A model generated the notes under the pieces. That model was not told the DNA's origin. It saw only the letters and a program-made list of their open reading frames with translations, and did not search any database. DNA of 49,133 bases from Campylobacterales bacterium (lineage in GTDB: Bacteria > Campylobacterota > Campylobacteria > Campylobacterales > QNZT01): the NCBI GenBank assembly GCA_027066435.1, contig JAMONX010000025.1, positions 1-49,133 of the forward strand, read 5' to 3'. The position numbers and the translations under genes are program-made. Of the stretch, positions 2,801-10,829 are shown piece by piece; positions within the stretch are counted from its first letter, which is position 1; each line of letters opens with the position of its first letter.

Positions 2801-2830
2801 TTCTATAAGAATAAAGTATTGGAAAAAATA

Positions 2831-4582
2831 ATGAATATTACTAATATATCAAACTGGATTAAAACATCTAACACAATTGGGGGAAGTTCTGTAAGTTTTG
2901 TTATAGAATTTGATAAAAAAAGACCGTATTTAAAAGATATTTCCTCAAATATATTTCAACTTTATGGTTATAAAAAAGAGGACTTATTAAATAAAAAAGA
3001 GTGTGTAGATGATTTAATTTATAAAAATGATCTTAAATTTATCTATCTTTCTATACAAAACTTTCTTCTAAAAAGAGAGAGAACGCATAAAATCTCTTTT
3101 AGAATTTTAACAGCCGATAAAAGTATAAAACTTGTTGAGTGTTTTTTTACTTTCAAAAAAGATAAAAAAAGAGATACTGTAATGTTATTTGGATATATTC
3201 TTGATAATACTATAAAAAAAGCTTATGAAGATGAGATAAACTATCTATACTATTATGACCAATTAACAGATCTTGCAAACCGAAGAAAGATTAAAAATGA
3301 GATAAACAAAGAGATAGAAAGCCATATTTATGCAAATACAAGTTCGGCTGTACTCTTTTTGGGATTAAATAGGTTTAAAAATATCAATGATTCATTAGGG
3401 TATGAAAAAGGTGATAAACTACTCCAACATGTAGCACATAGATTGAAAAGCTGTGTAAAAGATATAGATACACTAGCTAGAATTGGTGGAGATGAATTTG
3501 TAATTTTACTCTCAGGACTAAAAGAAAAAACAATTCGATCACAAATTGAAATAATTGCAAAAAGAATAAATACAATACTAGAACAACCATTTAAAATTGG
3601 TCCAAATTCACTCCATATCACAATAAGTATAGGGGCAGCTATAATAGGAGCTGATGGTAACAATAGTAATAAAATACTTAAAAATGCAGACTCAGCTATG
3701 AAAGAGGCTAAAAAAGATCAAAACATCTATCTAAGTTACTATAAATCAACGATGCAAGATAGAGCTTTGACAAATTTAGAGATAGAAAATGATTTAAGAG
3801 TAGCAATCAAAGAGGGAGAATTTGAGTTATATTACCAACCTCAAGTTGATATAAAAAGTGAACAAATAATAGGAGCAGAAGCATTAATAAGATGGAATCA
3901 TAGTAAAAAAGGTCTTATCTCTCCATTGACTTTTATACCTCTTGCTGAAGAGACTGGACTTATAGTCCCTGTTGGTGAATGGGTACTTCAAGATGCGTGT
4001 AGGAGAATAAAAGAGCTACAAAATGATCCTCTTTTGCCAGCTTCTTTTAAAAAAATATCTGTAAATATAAGCTCAAAACAGTTCAAACAACCAAGTTTTA
4101 CAGATGATGTGATAAAGATTATAAAGGAAAGTAAAATTGAACCCTCTTTTTTAGAACTTGAGGTAACAGAAGGTGCACTTATAAGTGATTTAGATGAAGC
4201 TATAGAAAAAATGGATAAATTAAAAAAGTTAGGGGTTGGGTTTTCTATAGATGATTTTGGTACAGGTTACTCATCATTTACTTATCTTAAAAAATTGCCA
4301 GTTGATATCATAAAAATAGATAAATCTTTTATCACAAATATGCACTCAGATGCAGATGATAGAGTTTTAACTCAAACCATAATCCAAATGTCTCAAAATC
4401 TCCAACTAGGTCTTATTGCTGAGGGTGTTGAAAAGATTGAGCATCTAAACTTCCTCCAAGAGAAGGGATGCCAAAGCTACCAAGGTTACTTCTTTTCAAA
4501 ACCACTCCCTTTTAATAACTTTAAAGAGTTAATTCATCAAAGTAGAGTAAAGCCTCTGGAGCTTTTAAGAGACACTGTTTAA
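2831..4582 (+). CDS. PAS-GGDEF-EAL cyclic-di-GMP turnover protein
   Basis: Cytoplasmic c-di-GMP enzyme of 583 residues with no membrane segment. Residues about 10-130 look like a PAS-type sensor (SSNIFQLYGYKKEDLL). The GGDEF domain keeps GGDEF at residues 219-223, but its product-inhibition site reads KDID instead of RxxD, so feedback inhibition may be lost. The EAL domain has E350 of the EAL motif, NISSKQF, ELEVTEG, DDFGTGYSS, KIDKSFI, AEGVE and QGYFFSKPL, all as in active phosphodiesterases. An in-frame TTG at 2819 is possible, but GGAA six bases before the ATG at 2831 and the promoter position favour the ATG. Whether net activity is synthesis or breakdown cannot be told. The sigma28-type promoter ties it to motility. 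Its stop overlaps that of the convergent lipoprotein gene by 4 bp. Confidence 0.9.
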   Translation: MNITNISNWIKTSNTIGGSSVSFVIEFDKKRPYLKDISSNIFQLYGYKKEDLLNKKECVDDLIYKNDLKFIYLSIQNFLLKRERTHKISFRILTADKSIKLVECFFTFKKDKKRDTVMLFGYILDNTIKKAYEDEINYLYYYDQLTDLANRRKIKNEINKEIESHIYANTSSAVLFLGLNRFKNINDSLGYEKGDKLLQHVAHRLKSCVKDIDTLARIGGDEFVILLSGLKEKTIRSQIEIIAKRINTILEQPFKIGPNSLHITISIGAAIIGADGNNSNKILKNADSAMKEAKKDQNIYLSYYKSTMQDRALTNLEIENDLRVAIKEGEFELYYQPQVDIKSEQIIGAEALIRWNHSKKGLISPLTFIPLAEETGLIVPVGEWVLQDACRRIKELQNDPLLPASFKKISVNISSKQFKQPSFTDDVIKIIKESKIEPSFLELEVTEGALISDLDEAIEKMDKLKKLGVGFSIDDFGTGYSSFTYLKKLPVDIIKIDKSFITNMHSDADDRVLTQTIIQMSQNLQLGLIAEGVEKIEHLNFLQEKGCQSYQGYFFSKPLPFNNFKELIHQSRVKPLELLRDTV

Positions 4583-6252
4583 AATTTTGGTTTATATGAC
4601 TCTGTCATATTTGATGCAAAAAGGAACATGTTTCTTCTATCAATTACATTAGAGACATTCCATGAGCTTATGTCTTGATTAAATGCTTCTGCACCATTAA
4701 ACATATTATACATATCGGTTACACTAGAGACATCCCAAGAACCTATATCTTGATTAAAAGCTTTTGAAGATGTAAACATAAACCTCATAGTTGTTACATT
4801 GGATACATCCCATGAGCTTATGTCTTGATTAAATGTTCCTGTAAGTCGAAACATATTAGCCATACTTGTTACACTAGAGACATCCCAAGAAGCCAAGTCT
4901 AGCTTGTCAAGAGCACCCTCTTTAAATACTCCCCAAAACATGCTATTCATACTAGTTACATTTGTAAGATTTGGTTTATCAGTAGTATCAAATTTCAACT
5001 TAACACAGCCATAAAAAGCGTGGCTCATTGTTTTCCAAGGCTGTGTTCCCCACTGTTTAACAGATATTAACTTTAATGCATCTGTTCTACTTCGACCTGA
5101 TACTATTTTATTTCGACTATTATAAAATCCTGGGAAGACTCCAGATATGCTGATAGTATATGTTCCAGCTTTATCATATTTGCAAAGATAACTGCTAGAA
5201 ACGGCTTTAGCTTCATCTATTCCATCATCATTACAATCTATATTATAACTATACTTTAAACCATAGTGGGTAAGAACACTATACTCTGTATCCAAACTTC
5301 TACCAATATTATCTGTCTTTACCACTATCTTAAAAGGTCTCTCACTCCCAACTACACTACTAACTTTATGATTTATCAAATCAAACTCATTTATCCAATT
5401 CCAATCATTTCCAAGTCCATAAGCTTTAACACCTATTTTATCTCCTAGTGTGATACTGCTTTTTGGTAGTGTTGTTTTAACTGTAGTACTCTTTTCAAAT
5501 TTTAAATACTCTTTTATTTTCCAACTCCAACTATTCCCATCACCTGTATATTCATATAGAGCATCATCTTCTACAAGATACTCAGCACCGCTTGTAGAGT
5601 ATCCACTATTTCTATTTTGGTCACTATTTAAATAGTATAAAAAATGTTTTACATTATCCTCTTGTTTGGTTAAAAAATAGATATTTGAAGCGTCATCTGT
5701 AATTGTCAATTTTATATCTTCGTCATTACTTTCAGCATCTGCATAGGTTATCACCTCTTTATCACTAATATATGCCCTATTCCAATCTTCACCAGCAATA
5801 GCTACTACTTGCATAGCAAAACTATCCCCTAATATATCAAATGATAATCTTGCATCATAATAGTCATCTTTTTCATTAGCATATGAGACTTTCTTCCAAG
5901 ACCATTCATTGTTGGTTCCTGTATATTTATATATTATGTTATCTTCAAACAAAAACTCTGCACCAATGCTATCATCTTCAAACATAGTAAAACCAGTAGC
6001 TGTATTTAGATCACTATCTATATAAACTTGAATATGAGAAGAATCGCTTCCATATTTAAAAAAATATTTTGAATCACTTACCGTTACATCTGCATATGTA
6101 TCATTTGACATATCAAGATCGCCATATGCTCTTGTGACTTTGTGGGGTTGAATATTGTTAGTTAATATTTCTGAGGTTTCTCCTCCTCCACATCCGCTTA
6201 AAATTAGTGTTGTTGTAAGTGTTGATAAAAATAGTATTTTACTTTTTTGCAT
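4579..6252 (-). CDS. BspA-like (DUF285) surface lipoprotein
   Basis: Predicted exported lipoprotein of 557 residues. The signal peptide ends in the lipobox LSGC (Cys21), followed by GGG. Residues about 45-260 contain two copies of one module, each built around an SD-rich strand, a phrase like YxxDxNxxxG(F/Y), then A/G-EFLFED or GAEYLVED and YxYTGxxxxWSWK. A middle segment (about 300-400) includes a Ca-site-like DCNDDGIDEAKA stretch and the PKD-like ending YDKAGTYTISISG. The C-terminal 150 residues are about four 25-residue DUF285 repeats of the type FNQDISSWDVSNVTTMxxMF, the leucine-rich-repeat-like surface modules known from BspA and Mycoplasma proteins. Adhesion or surface display is the family expectation; the ligand is unknown. 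AAGGAA precedes the ATG. Confidence 0.8.
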   Translation of the reverse strand: MQKSKILFLSTLTTTLILSGCGGGETSEILTNNIQPHKVTRAYGDLDMSNDTYADVTVSDSKYFFKYGSDSSHIQVYIDSDLNTATGFTMFEDDSIGAEFLFEDNIIYKYTGTNNEWSWKKVSYANEKDDYYDARLSFDILGDSFAMQVVAIAGEDWNRAYISDKEVITYADAESNDEDIKLTITDDASNIYFLTKQEDNVKHFLYYLNSDQNRNSGYSTSGAEYLVEDDALYEYTGDGNSWSWKIKEYLKFEKSTTVKTTLPKSSITLGDKIGVKAYGLGNDWNWINEFDLINHKVSSVVGSERPFKIVVKTDNIGRSLDTEYSVLTHYGLKYSYNIDCNDDGIDEAKAVSSSYLCKYDKAGTYTISISGVFPGFYNSRNKIVSGRSRTDALKLISVKQWGTQPWKTMSHAFYGCVKLKFDTTDKPNLTNVTSMNSMFWGVFKEGALDKLDLASWDVSSVTSMANMFRLTGTFNQDISSWDVSNVTTMRFMFTSSKAFNQDIGSWDVSSVTDMYNMFNGAEAFNQDISSWNVSNVIDRRNMFLFASNMTESYKPKF

Positions 6253-6282
6253 AGCCTATATTCCTTTTAAAAATTATCTGGA

Positions 6283-6312
6283 ATATTAGCTTTTGTTTAT
6301 TGGTAAAGTCAA
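6283..6312 (-). promoter_or_regulatory. Sigma70 promoter of the BspA-like lipoprotein gene
   Basis: On the minus strand TTGACT (6312-6307), an 18-nt spacer and TAATAT (6288-6283) form a good housekeeping promoter about 30 nt upstream of the ATG. No sigma28 element is present here. Confidence 0.5.
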
Positions 6313-6540
6313 TAAGAATTTAATTTATTTAAATTTATTAACTTTTTATTTAGAATACATATTGAATCCTTATATTTTTTTAGTAGCTAAATTTTAGAGA
6401 AGTTCTTACTTATAAAATTCTAGAAATTGTTCGAAAACAAATCGGCTGGTTGCCCAAATTTATTTCAGCTCATGTACTAAGTTCCTAGCTCCAAACACCA
6501 AAACACTTTGTCCTTTTTAGCCAAAATATTCCCAATACTG

Positions 6541-6553
6541 GGACACTATGTCC
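6541..6553. promoter_or_regulatory. Palindromic operator-like site GGACA-CTA-TGTCC
   Basis: A perfect 5+3+5 inverted repeat, with a half-copy on the same strand 40 bp to the left. It is about 95 bp upstream of the -35 element of the following gene. Regulator binding is only a possibility. Confidence 0.3.
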
Positions 6554-6647
6554 AGATATCGAAATATTTATGGCAAAAAAGAAATTTAATATTGTTAAAT
6601 TGTAATACTTTTTAGTACTATTGGAACACTTTTATATTACTTAAATA

Positions 6648-6676
6648 TTGAATTTAGTTGGTGTTTAGGTTATAAT
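6648..6676 (+). promoter_or_regulatory. Sigma70 promoter of the cold-shock-like/nuclease-like gene
   Basis: TTGAAT (6648-6653), a 17-nt spacer and a perfect TATAAT (6671-6676). Transcription would start near 6683. This leaves only about 11 nt before the TTG at 6694 but about 50 nt before the ATG at 6733, favouring the ATG. Confidence 0.6.
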
Positions 6677-6732
6677 GTTCCTGTATTAAATAGTTGTACA
6701 CTAAATCAATATTAATAAAATATGTAATACAA

Positions 6733-8826
6733 ATGACCGTAAATAAAGGATATTCAATTTTTAAGAAAATCATAAATAAGCTTTTTAAAAATAAAAACTC
6801 TAATAAAGAACAGCCTGAAGAGAATTTGTCACTAATTAGTACAAAAGAGCCTAAGTCATCAAATATTGAGAAAAAAAATGAAAAGAATGTTTCAAAAAAA
6901 GAAAGTTTCCTTAAAACTTTAGATAAATATGAAATAGGAATTATAAAAAACTATGATGAAATAGATGTTAGGACTGAGAGAAAACGAAGCTATGGTTTTA
7001 TCCAAACATTTTCATTTAAAGACTTATATTTTCATAAAAAAAACTTACATAATAAATCAACAAAAAAAGATGATATTGTAATATTTAAATATGGAGAGAA
7101 TGAAAAAGGTCAAGTTGCAGAAAGTATTATAACCCTTAAAAATAATCAAATTTCACTTGATAGTTTAATCTTTCTTATTGAAAAATTTCATAAATCTAAT
7201 TTAGACTTTTTTCAGACTGACCAAGTATCAAAACTTATTTATAGTTTTATATCAGGTACTCTAGCTAAAGATATAAATGAAAATACATATATAAAACTAC
7301 TTGAGATATATCATGGTTTAGATAAATTAAAATTAATTGACAACTATATTACTGCAAACGGTAGTATTTCTAAAGAAATAATTGAAATATTAAAAAATAA
7401 TTTAAATAATGAAAATATTGAACAATTTCTTAATCTAAAAAATAAAGAGCTATTTTTAGGTAGCCAACTTATAATAAATAAACTTGAAACAATTCCTAAA
7501 TATGTTAAATTAAAATATAAATTTTTTTTAGAAGACATTGTTGTATGTCAAAATTATATACATGTAGATGTTAGTTATGAACCCAATGAAATATATAACT
7601 TATTTAAAGACTCTGATTATACACTTGCAAAACAGTGGATAAATAAAACAAAAAATTTCCAATTTGAATATGCTAAGATGATATCAGCAAGAGGTGCTGA
7701 AATAGCCTCTAAAAAATTCTATGAACTTCTTCATTGTAATGTTAGTGATACTGCAATTACACAACTAAATCATAATAATGATAATTGGAAATTTTTTGAT
7801 TTACATGTAGATACTAAAAATATTGATGTTAAGAATTCAAGAGGTGTATTAAATGAAAAACTTTCATATTCTGAGCATTGTATTCCTAGATTTAAAGAAA
7901 CTAGAAATGGAAAACATATTTATATACTTGGGGTAATTTCACCATATTTTAAATTAGAAGAAGATGAAGAAAAATTAAAGTATAATGCATTTTACAGTAC
8001 AACGAATATAGAAAATATGATTACCATATTGGGAGAGACCTCTCTAGATAAAATAAATCAATATTCTAGTAGATTTAGTCAAAAGGAACTGCAAGTTGAT
8101 TTAGATAGGGTAAATTTTACACCTGATTGGATCTTAGAATATCCAAATATTTTTTACATACAACGAGATAATTTAAAAAGTAAATTTCTTAAAGAACATA
8201 CTCAGTTTCCTACTTTAAACGAGTACAAACAACTCAATCAAAATTTAATACCATTTTTCTTAAGCTGTGGACTAGATTTGCTAAGTTCAGGACTTAATAA
8301 AGAACAAGTAAATTTTTACAATAGATTAAAGATTCAAGGTAAACAGACCATTACAAAACCTTTTCTATATTTAGCAATTCTAAAACATTTTTCTGAAAGA
8401 CTTAAACACAATACTAATTCTAGCTACAGACCAATCGATTATAGACAATTAATATACTACGAAGTAAGCTACAAATATCCATTAGGAATTTATGACCCAA
8501 CTTTAATTATAAAAAAACTTATTGACACCTTAGAAACATTATGGCAACAAAAAAATAGAATGAATATGTCAAATTATATTACCTTTAAGTATAATCAAAA
8601 AGGAATATTATTAGCAAAGTCTTCTCTATCTAATTCTTGGGATACATTACTTGCATATTGTGGAGGGTTTATTGAAGGAAAAGGTTCATGTGGATTTAAG
8701 CCATTGATTAAAGGTGAACATGAGACCTGTGCTTATTGTAATAAAATAATTTGTCCAGAATGTAATTTTTGCAGAGATAGATGTAATAGACTAAAAAATC
8801 AAAATACGATAGGTGTCATACTTTAA
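6733..8826 (+). CDS. Unknown protein: cold-shock-like domain, possible PD-(D/E)XK core, C-terminal Cys cluster
   Basis: Not recognised as a named family; 697 residues from the ATG at 6733 (an in-frame TTG at 6694 adds 13; neither has a clear ribosome site). The first 60 residues are Lys/Asn/Glu-rich and probably disordered. Residues 67-132 resemble a cold-shock OB fold: GIIKNY, an RNP1-like YGFIQ (87-91), an RNP2-like LYFHKKNL (98-105) and KKDDIVIF. Mid-protein, ARGAEIASKKFYELL (E323) followed by WKFFDLHVD (D356, D360) and IDVKNSRG (D365, K367) has the order and spacing of a PD-(D/E)XK nuclease core, with a following strand IYILGVIS. The C-terminus has eight cysteines (643, 653, 666, 669, 674, 677, 680, 684) in CxxC-x4-CxxCxxC-x3-C style, suggesting zinc. 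No helicase or ATPase motif is seen. It stands alone with its own promoter and is strikingly AT-rich. Nuclease activity and a defence or RNA role are inferences. Confidence 0.6.
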   Translation: MTVNKGYSIFKKIINKLFKNKNSNKEQPEENLSLISTKEPKSSNIEKKNEKNVSKKESFLKTLDKYEIGIIKNYDEIDVRTERKRSYGFIQTFSFKDLYFHKKNLHNKSTKKDDIVIFKYGENEKGQVAESIITLKNNQISLDSLIFLIEKFHKSNLDFFQTDQVSKLIYSFISGTLAKDINENTYIKLLEIYHGLDKLKLIDNYITANGSISKEIIEILKNNLNNENIEQFLNLKNKELFLGSQLIINKLETIPKYVKLKYKFFLEDIVVCQNYIHVDVSYEPNEIYNLFKDSDYTLAKQWINKTKNFQFEYAKMISARGAEIASKKFYELLHCNVSDTAITQLNHNNDNWKFFDLHVDTKNIDVKNSRGVLNEKLSYSEHCIPRFKETRNGKHIYILGVISPYFKLEEDEEKLKYNAFYSTTNIENMITILGETSLDKINQYSSRFSQKELQVDLDRVNFTPDWILEYPNIFYIQRDNLKSKFLKEHTQFPTLNEYKQLNQNLIPFFLSCGLDLLSSGLNKEQVNFYNRLKIQGKQTITKPFLYLAILKHFSERLKHNTNSSYRPIDYRQLIYYEVSYKYPLGIYDPTLIIKKLIDTLETLWQQKNRMNMSNYITFKYNQKGILLAKSSLSNSWDTLLAYCGGFIEGKGSCGFKPLIKGEHETCAYCNKIICPECNFCRDRCNRLKNQNTIGVIL

Positions 8827-8858
8827 CTTTTCACCTTTTTGCAATTTTTTATCAGTTC

Positions 8859-10829
8859 TTAAGTGATACCGTTTAATCTCAAAAGTGCATCTGCATCTGG
8901 TTTTGTTCCGCTAAAGGCTACAAAACTCTCCATTGCAGGTCTGCTTCCACCTTTTGCCAATACCTCTTCATAGTATCTGCTTGACAAGTTTTCATTAAAA
9001 ATACCTTGGTCTATAAACTTAAAGTATGCATCTGCTGATAAAACCTCTGCCCACTTATAGCTATAATACCCAGCAGCATAGCCACCTGCAAATATATGAG
9101 CAAAGCCCCATTGAAACTTATTGTAACTTGGTGGTTTTATGACTGCATATTTTTGCCTTAAATCATCCAGAGTCTTCTGTACATCATTTGAGGTTAATTT
9201 TTCCATATGTATCTTCATATCAAATAGTGAAAACTCGATTTGTCGCATCATCCCAAGAGCTGATTGAAAGTTTTTAGAGATTTTTAATTTCTCAATCATC
9301 TCATCACTCAAAATCTCTTTTGTCTCATAGTGGTAAGCAAACGATTTTAAAACCTCCTCTTCATAAGCAAAATTCTCCAAAAATTGACTTGGAAATTCCA
9401 CGGCATCCCACTCAACACCATTGATACCACTTACAAAAGGTTCCTCAACTTGACTTAGCATATGGTGAAGTGCATGACCCATCTCATGAAAAAGAGTTAC
9501 AACATCGCTTGGTCTTAGAAGTGATAGACTATTTTCAGATGAGGGAGAGAAATTTGCTACTATATAAGCCACAGGCAATACCTTCTCTCCTTTAGAGTTT
9601 ATATGATGCGTAACCCAGTCATTCATCCAAGCCCCACCTCTTTTCCCTTTTCTAGCCTCTAAATCTATGTAGATTCTTGCAACTGCTTTATCATCTTTAA
9701 ATAGATCATATGCATTTGCTTTTTTGTGCCAAATTTTTGTATCAGCTTTTTTAAATGTAACTCCTAAGAGTCTATTTACAAAATCAAACAACCCTTTTAT
9801 GCACTGATTTTTCTCAAAGTATGGCATATAAGCCTCATCTGCAACATCTAAAGATGCAATTTTAAGCTTTTCACTATAGTAGGCAACATCCCAAGACTCC
9901 AATTCCCCTTTAAAACCATTTGCATTTGCAAACTCTTGTAAAGCCTTAAACTCCTTTTTGGCTTGAGGTTTGCTCTTTGTTGCAATATCCTCTAAAAACT
10001 CTACCACATCCAATGGAGCATCTGCCATCTTCGGAGCTAAACTAAGCTCTGCAAAGTTTTTAAATCCTAAAATTTTTGCCTCTTCATTTCTAAGGGCTAA
10101 AATTTCTTCTATTATCTCATCATTTTCAGGAGCTCTGGTAGTATAAGCTTTATATAACTTCTCTTTTAACTCCCTATTTTTACTATAGGTCATAAACGCT
10201 ACAAAGGAGGGTTGTTGGAGAGTAAATTTATAGACAGTTTTCCCATCTTTCTCCTCTTTTGCTGCTTCTAAATCAGACTTTGGAAGCTCTTTTACATCTT
10301 CAAAATCAAAAACTTCCATCTCATATGCATCTGTAGCTTTTAAAAGATTTTGTGCAAAGTTTGTAGTTTTTTCACTAAGCTTAAGATTTATCTCTGCTAA
10401 TCTATCTTTTTTATCTTTAGAAAGTCCAACACCACTAAGTTCAAAAGATAGTATCGCATCTTGGAGTACTTTATCTTGCTCCTTAGTTAAACTATTTTGT
10501 TCATTTTTCGCTATCTCTTTAAATGTATTGTAGATATCTTCATTTTGGCTCAGTTTAGTACTATACTCTGTTAAAACTGGAAGAAGCTCATTGTAAGTCT
10601 CTTCACTCTCTTTAGTGTTATTAACATAATTTAGATGCGAAATTGGTGTAAAAGCAAACTCCAACTTAAGCGAAAGCTCTTGAAAAGGAGTTAAAAAACT
10701 TTTATAACTCTTTTTCTCCAATCTTAATAACTCTTCACTCTCTTTGGAGTTACTCTCTATGATAGAGAGAACCTCTTCTTTTTTCTCTTTAAGATTCTCA
10801 TTTGTCAATGTAAACTCTTTAAAACTCAT
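8859..10829 (-). CDS. prlC: Oligopeptidase A, M3 family zinc metallopeptidase
   Basis: Cytosolic thimet-type oligopeptidase of 656 residues that cleaves short peptides, including released signal peptides in E. coli. The zinc site HEMGH is at residues 448-452 within TLFHEMGHALHHML, followed by the third-ligand region GVEWDAVEFPSQFLENF, which is characteristic of the PrlC/OpdA branch rather than PepF. No signal peptide is present. AAAGG precedes the ATG. It is the last gene of an apparent operon with the phosphoesterase (24 bp upstream), the DUF89 protein and the DAHP synthase. Confidence 0.93.
   Translation of the reverse strand: MSFKEFTLTNENLKEKKEEVLSIIESNSKESEELLRLEKKSYKSFLTPFQELSLKLEFAFTPISHLNYVNNTKESEETYNELLPVLTEYSTKLSQNEDIYNTFKEIAKNEQNSLTKEQDKVLQDAILSFELSGVGLSKDKKDRLAEINLKLSEKTTNFAQNLLKATDAYEMEVFDFEDVKELPKSDLEAAKEEKDGKTVYKFTLQQPSFVAFMTYSKNRELKEKLYKAYTTRAPENDEIIEEILALRNEEAKILGFKNFAELSLAPKMADAPLDVVEFLEDIATKSKPQAKKEFKALQEFANANGFKGELESWDVAYYSEKLKIASLDVADEAYMPYFEKNQCIKGLFDFVNRLLGVTFKKADTKIWHKKANAYDLFKDDKAVARIYIDLEARKGKRGGAWMNDWVTHHINSKGEKVLPVAYIVANFSPSSENSLSLLRPSDVVTLFHEMGHALHHMLSQVEEPFVSGINGVEWDAVEFPSQFLENFAYEEEVLKSFAYHYETKEILSDEMIEKLKISKNFQSALGMMRQIEFSLFDMKIHMEKLTSNDVQKTLDDLRQKYAVIKPPSYNKFQWGFAHIFAGGYAAGYYSYKWAEVLSADAYFKFIDQGIFNENLSSRYYEEVLAKGGSRPAMESFVAFSGTKPDADALLRLNGIT

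Follow-up and report, generated by a model that had tools for sequence, protein, structure and literature searches.

A 697-aa protein is encoded in a Campylobacterales genome between a surface lipoprotein gene and an oligopeptidase gene, and the question raised by this locus is what such a protein does and how its gene came to be there. The window analysed here is a whole stretch of 49,133 nt (contig JAMONX010000025.1). The reading frame had been proposed in a first-pass annotation made from the sequence alone, and it was found to be open and to begin with ATG. The parts of the encoded protein follow one another in the order of cold-shock OB domain, helical linker, PD-(D/E)XK-type core, helical region and eight-cysteine cluster. 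Their positions, with the evidence for each, are as follows.

6733..8826, + strand: coding sequence of 697 aa (open ORF, ATG start, homologues, alignment)
6931..7131, + strand: cold-shock-like OB domain, residues 67–133 (HMM, profile against the PDB, model and Foldseek)
7609..8112, + strand: predicted PD-(D/E)XK core, about residues 293–460 (pLDDT, second model, Foldseek, conservation)
7699..7701, + strand: codon of E323 (helix 309–332; invariant)
7798..7800, + strand: codon of D356 (at strand 357–359; invariant)
7825..7833, + strand: D365-V366-K367, the D-x-K motif (strand 362–370; invariant and followed by invariant N368)
8659..8784, + strand: eight-cysteine cluster, C643–C684 (all eight invariant; weak Pfam treble-clef match)

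The gene has a G–C content of about 23–27%, compared with 29–36% in its neighbours, which bears out the higher AT content ascribed to it earlier. No Shine-Dalgarno-like sequence was seen ahead of the ATG at 6733 (window 6694–6733). Searches of Pfam, NCBIfam, PADLOC and PHROGs revealed no family that spans the whole protein, and outside the cold-shock region none of their models describes it; comparison with PDB sequences gave no match. This agrees with the earlier remark that no named system has this exact chain of domains. A literature search, with subscription journals outside its coverage, found no paper describing the exact CSD-nuclease-cysteine family. The window protein is a member of a rare, previously unnamed bacterial protein family.

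An OB fold of the cold-shock type had been suggested at residues 67–132, and HMM, profile and structure searches all lead to cold-shock proteins there. Residues 67–133 carry the RNP1-like motif SYGFIQ and the RNP2-like motif DLYFH. The Pfam CSD model matches residues 83–133 of the full-length query with an E-value of 0.001, below the curated cut-off, and the isolated domain with an E-value of 3 × 10−5, while the best PADLOC match of the N-terminus is CSD_V at residues 67–133 (E-value, 1.4 × 10−4). A profile built from 11 cold-shock domains of the family retrieved cold-shock proteins from the PDB (best E-values about 10−4 to 10−3), as did Foldseek with the N-terminus of the AlphaFold2 model (probability, 1.00; TM, 0.6–0.7 depending on the target). 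The five strands expected of the barrel are found in the model at 66–77, 84–92, 97–101, 115–121 and 128–134, at low pLDDT. Thus modelled, the region is a five-strand OB barrel with RNP1/RNP2-like motifs, as is characteristic of cold-shock domains. Cold-shock domains (GFGFAxxLTG...FLNExR...) occur as well in the proteins of Solimonas, Lysobacter, Corallococcus and Variovorax. Members from the Alphaproteobacteria, Chloroflexota and Pseudomonadales have a degenerate domain or none, which counts against the reading preferred below.

The array E323...D356...D365-x-K367 had been proposed as the heart of a restriction-endonuclease-like core, and the four residues are indeed found at these positions. 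In the AlphaFold2 models they lie on the expected helix and strands; the model of the full protein has a low overall pLDDT of 62, with block means of 75–93 over residues 281–370. When the core was modelled alone, the best 50 PDB matches in Foldseek were almost only influenza PA endonuclease, together with EcoRV, HindIII and the TSEN complex, so that the structure search proposed earlier returned PD-(D/E)XK nucleases consistently, if weakly in each case. The best PDB match has an E-value of only 0.16 and a TM of about 0.3, which is a point against the preferred reading, and the weight therefore rests on the consistency across the list rather than on single matches. Against BFVD, the best match of the core has an E-value of 1.1 × 10−3; the matches that carry names there include a restriction endonuclease from a phage, PD-(D/E)XK proteins and a Holliday junction resolvase. 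Both the order of secondary structure elements and the fold neighbours agree with the alpha-beta-beta-beta-alpha-beta topology, with PDB E-values of 0.16 or above. A sequence search of the PDB with a core profile gave nothing meaningful. Judged from sequence, E323, D356, D365 and K367 constitute the predicted E/D...D...(D/E)-x-K active-site array of the PD-(D/E)XK superfamily.

Alignment of 17 homologous proteins revealed 33 invariant positions among the 697, including R320, E323, D339, Q344, W352, D356, D365, V366, K367, N368 and the eight cysteines. The four array residues, chosen before any homologue had been aligned, are thus constant in proteins from several phyla. The chance that four preselected residues all fall in invariant columns is about 5 × 10−6, so their invariance is not a matter of luck. 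The C-terminal cysteines noticed earlier are likewise in place and all invariant (C643, C653, C666, C669, C674, C677, C680 and C684). Pfam DUF2116, a treble-clef model, matches the window protein weakly (E-value, 1.9), and the cluster probably forms two zinc sites.

About 16 distinct relatives were found in Pseudomonadota, Myxococcota, Chloroflexota, one cyanobacterium and one unassigned metagenome-assembled genome (MAG). Six were obtained by tblastn against plasmids (Synechocystis, Variovorax, two Roseomonas, Sinorhizobium and Microvirga), and a profile scan of GTDB genomes added nine (two each of Solimonas, Lysobacter and Corallococcus, and a Chloroflexota, a Pseudomonadales and an unassigned MAG); whole-genome profile searches yielded a few further members. 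Members of the family are scarce wherever they were looked for: of 59 relatives of the host, and of 397 genomes of its class, the genome of the window alone gave a match, and in other groups the family occurs in 1 of 369, 2 of 250, 3 of 85, 3 of 117 and 1 of 199 genomes. Single-sequence pattern scans of genome contigs and viral contigs detected no relatives. Five scans of IMG/VR, profile scans among them, three query sequences against phage records, and PHROGs gave no family member, and hence no link to phages is visible from the viral side. In the tree of 17 members, the window protein lies on a long branch with the proteins of the unassigned MAG and the Chloroflexota (support, 100/98), far from other Campylobacterota proteins, since none were found; the long branches make finer placement unsure. 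The copy on plasmid CP101712 of Synechocystis sp. B12 (L002:7773-10247) is broken, with the cold-shock domain, the nuclease and the cysteine cluster as separate ORFs in different frames, and the region also holds VapC, macro-domain and VWA genes.

The DNA around the gene bears on how it reached this site, and the following features were recognised there.

4583..8858, no strand assigned: insert of ~4.3 kb with the lipoprotein and CSD-nuclease genes (absent from two congeners)
4579..6252, − strand: PARCEL/BspA-like surface lipoprotein gene (TIGR02167), in the same insert and divergent from the nuclease gene
6486..6695, + strand: Pc-attI-like repeat, integron-derived (dispersed copies, alignment, copy beside an intact intI)
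6648–6676, + strand: promoter TTGAAT-17-TATAAT, inside the Pc-attI-like repeat

Two congeners have the GGDEF/EAL gene (window 2819–4582) right next to the oligopeptidase gene (window 8859–10829), and relative to these the gene, which had been suspected to be acquired, is part of an insertion. No sign of a functional link between the lipoprotein gene and the nuclease gene was found; the 3' end of the former contains three repeats spaced by 75 bp. A strong promoter of its own had been ascribed to the gene. Taken alone, the −35/−10 pair does not rise above chance (21 promoter-like sites found, 19.7 expected), but it is credible because the six dispersed copies of the repeat that were aligned all keep a promoter of the TTGA-type/TAnnAT form with a spacer of 17 bp. 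Homology of the copies stops at ATAGTT (GTT at 6693–6695), 37 bp ahead of the ATG, and different genes begin there. An alternative TTG start at 6694 overlaps this attI-like GTT.

One copy of the repeat, on another contig, directly precedes the gene of an intact integron integrase and points away from it (TIGR02249, 411 bits; G000:C38, L044:369-1331), and Pc-attI copies occur on at least four other contigs (C25, which is that of the window, C133 twice, C21 and C156), each directly before a different gene. Repeat, promoter and shared end point are arranged as in an integron, with its Pc promoter followed by attI. Most likely, either Pc-attI received the gene as its first cassette, or a remnant of Pc-attI came to lie ahead of it. 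Insertion at attI downstream of Pc is indicated by the match of the upstream repeat to the Pc-attI of the intact integron. A simple R''/R' plus fold scan of 8701–8960 recognised no attC, which leaves membership among integron cassettes incomplete. Degenerate integron-integrase fragments, with a stop codon in each, lie near more pieces of the repeat at G000:C3:55426-55839 and G000:C74:1226-1504 and represent old, dead integrons. On C133, a gene judged by eye to be of DUF4365-like type, with no NCBIfam match (L043:3832-4809), lies between the two repeat copies and is followed by another unnamed gene; both may be accessory cassettes.

A survey of the loci of homologues, proposed earlier with defence islands in mind, showed that known defence genes lie nearby at 7 of 14 independent loci. 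The Sinorhizobium gene is followed after 134 bp by GajA/GajB (Gabija) in the same orientation. The Roseomonas OT10 copy has a DrmA-like helicase (DISARM-like), Vsr, HNH, cytosine methyltransferase and DUF262/NsnA-like genes in its vicinity, that of Microvirga has SspH and a phosphorothioation-associated methyltransferase, and that of Lysobacter A03 has MzaC/MzaE (Mza). DpdB, DpdD and DpdJ (Dpd) and HNH are found near the Solimonas SE-A11 copy; a GmrSD/NsnA-like gene immediately precedes the copy of Lysobacter A6, and Synechocystis has an HmaA-like DUF3883 gene with VapC. With a handful of defence systems per genome, such neighbours would be expected, on a general estimate, at only a few percent of random loci. 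The remaining loci are solitary among ordinary genes (urocanase/malic enzyme, ribonucleotide reductase) or incompletely annotated; the neighbour in the Chloroflexota MAG resembles alanyl-tRNA synthetase by eye. Four copies, those of the window, L008, L009 and L015, are fully solitary, and altogether about half of the loci, the window included, are without a known defence gene nearby, which is a point against a role in defence. The absence of any recurring partner speaks for a protein that acts alone, and a methyltransferase is found neither in the window insert nor consistently beside the relatives.

The features observed are the order of the domains, catalytic and cysteine residues that never vary, a patchy occurrence across phyla, frequent neighbours from defence systems, a site that is empty in congeners and a promoter of integron type just ahead of the gene; together they are best read as those of a probable defence nuclease. 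On sequence and model, we consider it reasonably probable that the protein is a self-contained, horizontally acquired, single-gene nuclease, most likely directed at invading nucleic acid. Binding to single strands of nucleic acid, or to a structured intermediate, would fall to the cold-shock OB domain together with the cysteine (zinc) cluster, and cutting to the PD-(D/E)XK core, with metal-dependent chemistry at E323, D356, D365 and K367. Self and non-self might be told apart by an invader-specific cue, such as exposed single strands, transcripts or a modification; such a cue is preferred to a paired methyltransferase because no methyltransferase travels with the gene. Most PD-(D/E)XK enzymes cut DNA. 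For the window protein, RNA and single-stranded DNA are about equally likely as predicted substrates, RNA being a serious candidate because of the relationship of the cold-shock domain and the precedent of CoCoNuT (PMC11090510). A bolder version, which we offer tentatively, is a novel kind of single-protein immune nuclease that would need no methyltransferase, guide or partner: the cold-shock domain would sense single strands, perhaps phage transcripts, and license the core, the eight cysteines would serve as a second reader, and the gene would have been mobilised between phyla, here to a place behind an integron promoter.

Other explanations have to be weighed against the defence nuclease. 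The protein might be a housekeeping-type nuclease of RNA/DNA processing or repair, with its neighbours merely mirroring hot spots of accessory genes. Ribonucleases can carry cold-shock domains, and 6 of the 11 family cold-shock domains match Pfam OB_RNB weakly (best E-value, 0.0053); the many loci without defence neighbours would also fit. However, the family is absent from almost every relative in the groups that were searched, the insertion occupies a dispensable site, unlike what is expected of a housekeeping enzyme, and the defence neighbours come from six or more unrelated systems, so we regard this explanation as unlikely.

It is still less probable that the protein serves, as accessory subunit or effector, a single known defence system (Gabija, Dpd or Mza, for example) from which the window copy has come apart. 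The close, co-oriented GajA/GajB of Sinorhizobium and the Dpd genes near the Solimonas copy would suit such a subunit, but each locus has a different neighbouring system, and several copies stand entirely alone. The least probable explanation, to which we give very little credence, is a catalytically dead or decaying passenger gene; the Synechocystis copy, split into several ORFs, is an example of such decay, whereas the window ORF is intact, keeps 33 of 33 invariant family positions and is preceded by an intact promoter repeat. If the defence-nuclease reading is true, an undescribed family would be added to single-gene bacterial immunity, and recognition of self and non-self by a cold-shock domain in place of methylation would become a testable idea. 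The conserved active site, the clear empty insertion site and the obvious catalytic-mutant controls make the proposal directly testable.

Among known proteins, the PD-(D/E)XK superfamily (restriction endonucleases, resolvases, influenza PA, McrC) resembles the window protein in a helix with E followed, in the canonical order, by strands with D and D-x-K, and nearly all Foldseek neighbours of the core belong to it. The window protein has no detectable sequence similarity to its named families, and its own family adds invariant D339, Q344, W352 and N368, a fused cold-shock domain and the eight-cysteine cluster. The type V retron effector (Se72-type cold-shock protein; NCBIfam NF038236, PADLOC CSD_V) is alike in having a cold-shock domain in a defence context. 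Such effectors consist of little more than this domain (model length, 62–64) and act with a reverse transcriptase and a non-coding RNA; no reverse transcriptase gene was found among the surrounding ORFs or in the insert, and membership was rejected. A type II restriction-modification system was likewise rejected for want of a cognate methyltransferase in the insert or consistently beside the relatives. TOTE/TALON conflict systems, as described in PMC12458937, have a cold-shock domain fused to helical repeats near nucleases, and are multigene: a gene resembling that of the TATA-binding protein is present, and the effector is encoded separately. Compared with that description, the window protein shares a cold-shock domain and a helical region; it is encoded by a single gene and has no TPR HMM match, so TOTE membership was rejected. 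The retron, restriction-modification and TOTE systems, and CoCoNuT as well, were each set aside because a defining feature is lacking.

Closest in spirit to the three-part combination of the window protein is the McrC-like CnuC of CoCoNuT types I-A/II, a form of type IV restriction. In type I-A, a single defence polypeptide carries a zinc ribbon besides a CSD-like OB fold and a PD-(D/E)XK nuclease; CnuC also contains DUF2357 as well as an Ig-like domain, and its partner is the CnuB GTPase (PMC11090510). The window protein differs in two respects: no McrB-like GTPase with an NxD motif is present in the insert, which consists of the lipoprotein and CSD-nuclease genes only, and no DUF2357/McrC N-terminal domain was matched in Pfam at E-values up to 10 for the window protein and up to 1 for its relatives; membership in CoCoNuT was rejected on these grounds. 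The window protein probably works like other PD-(D/E)XK defence nucleases.
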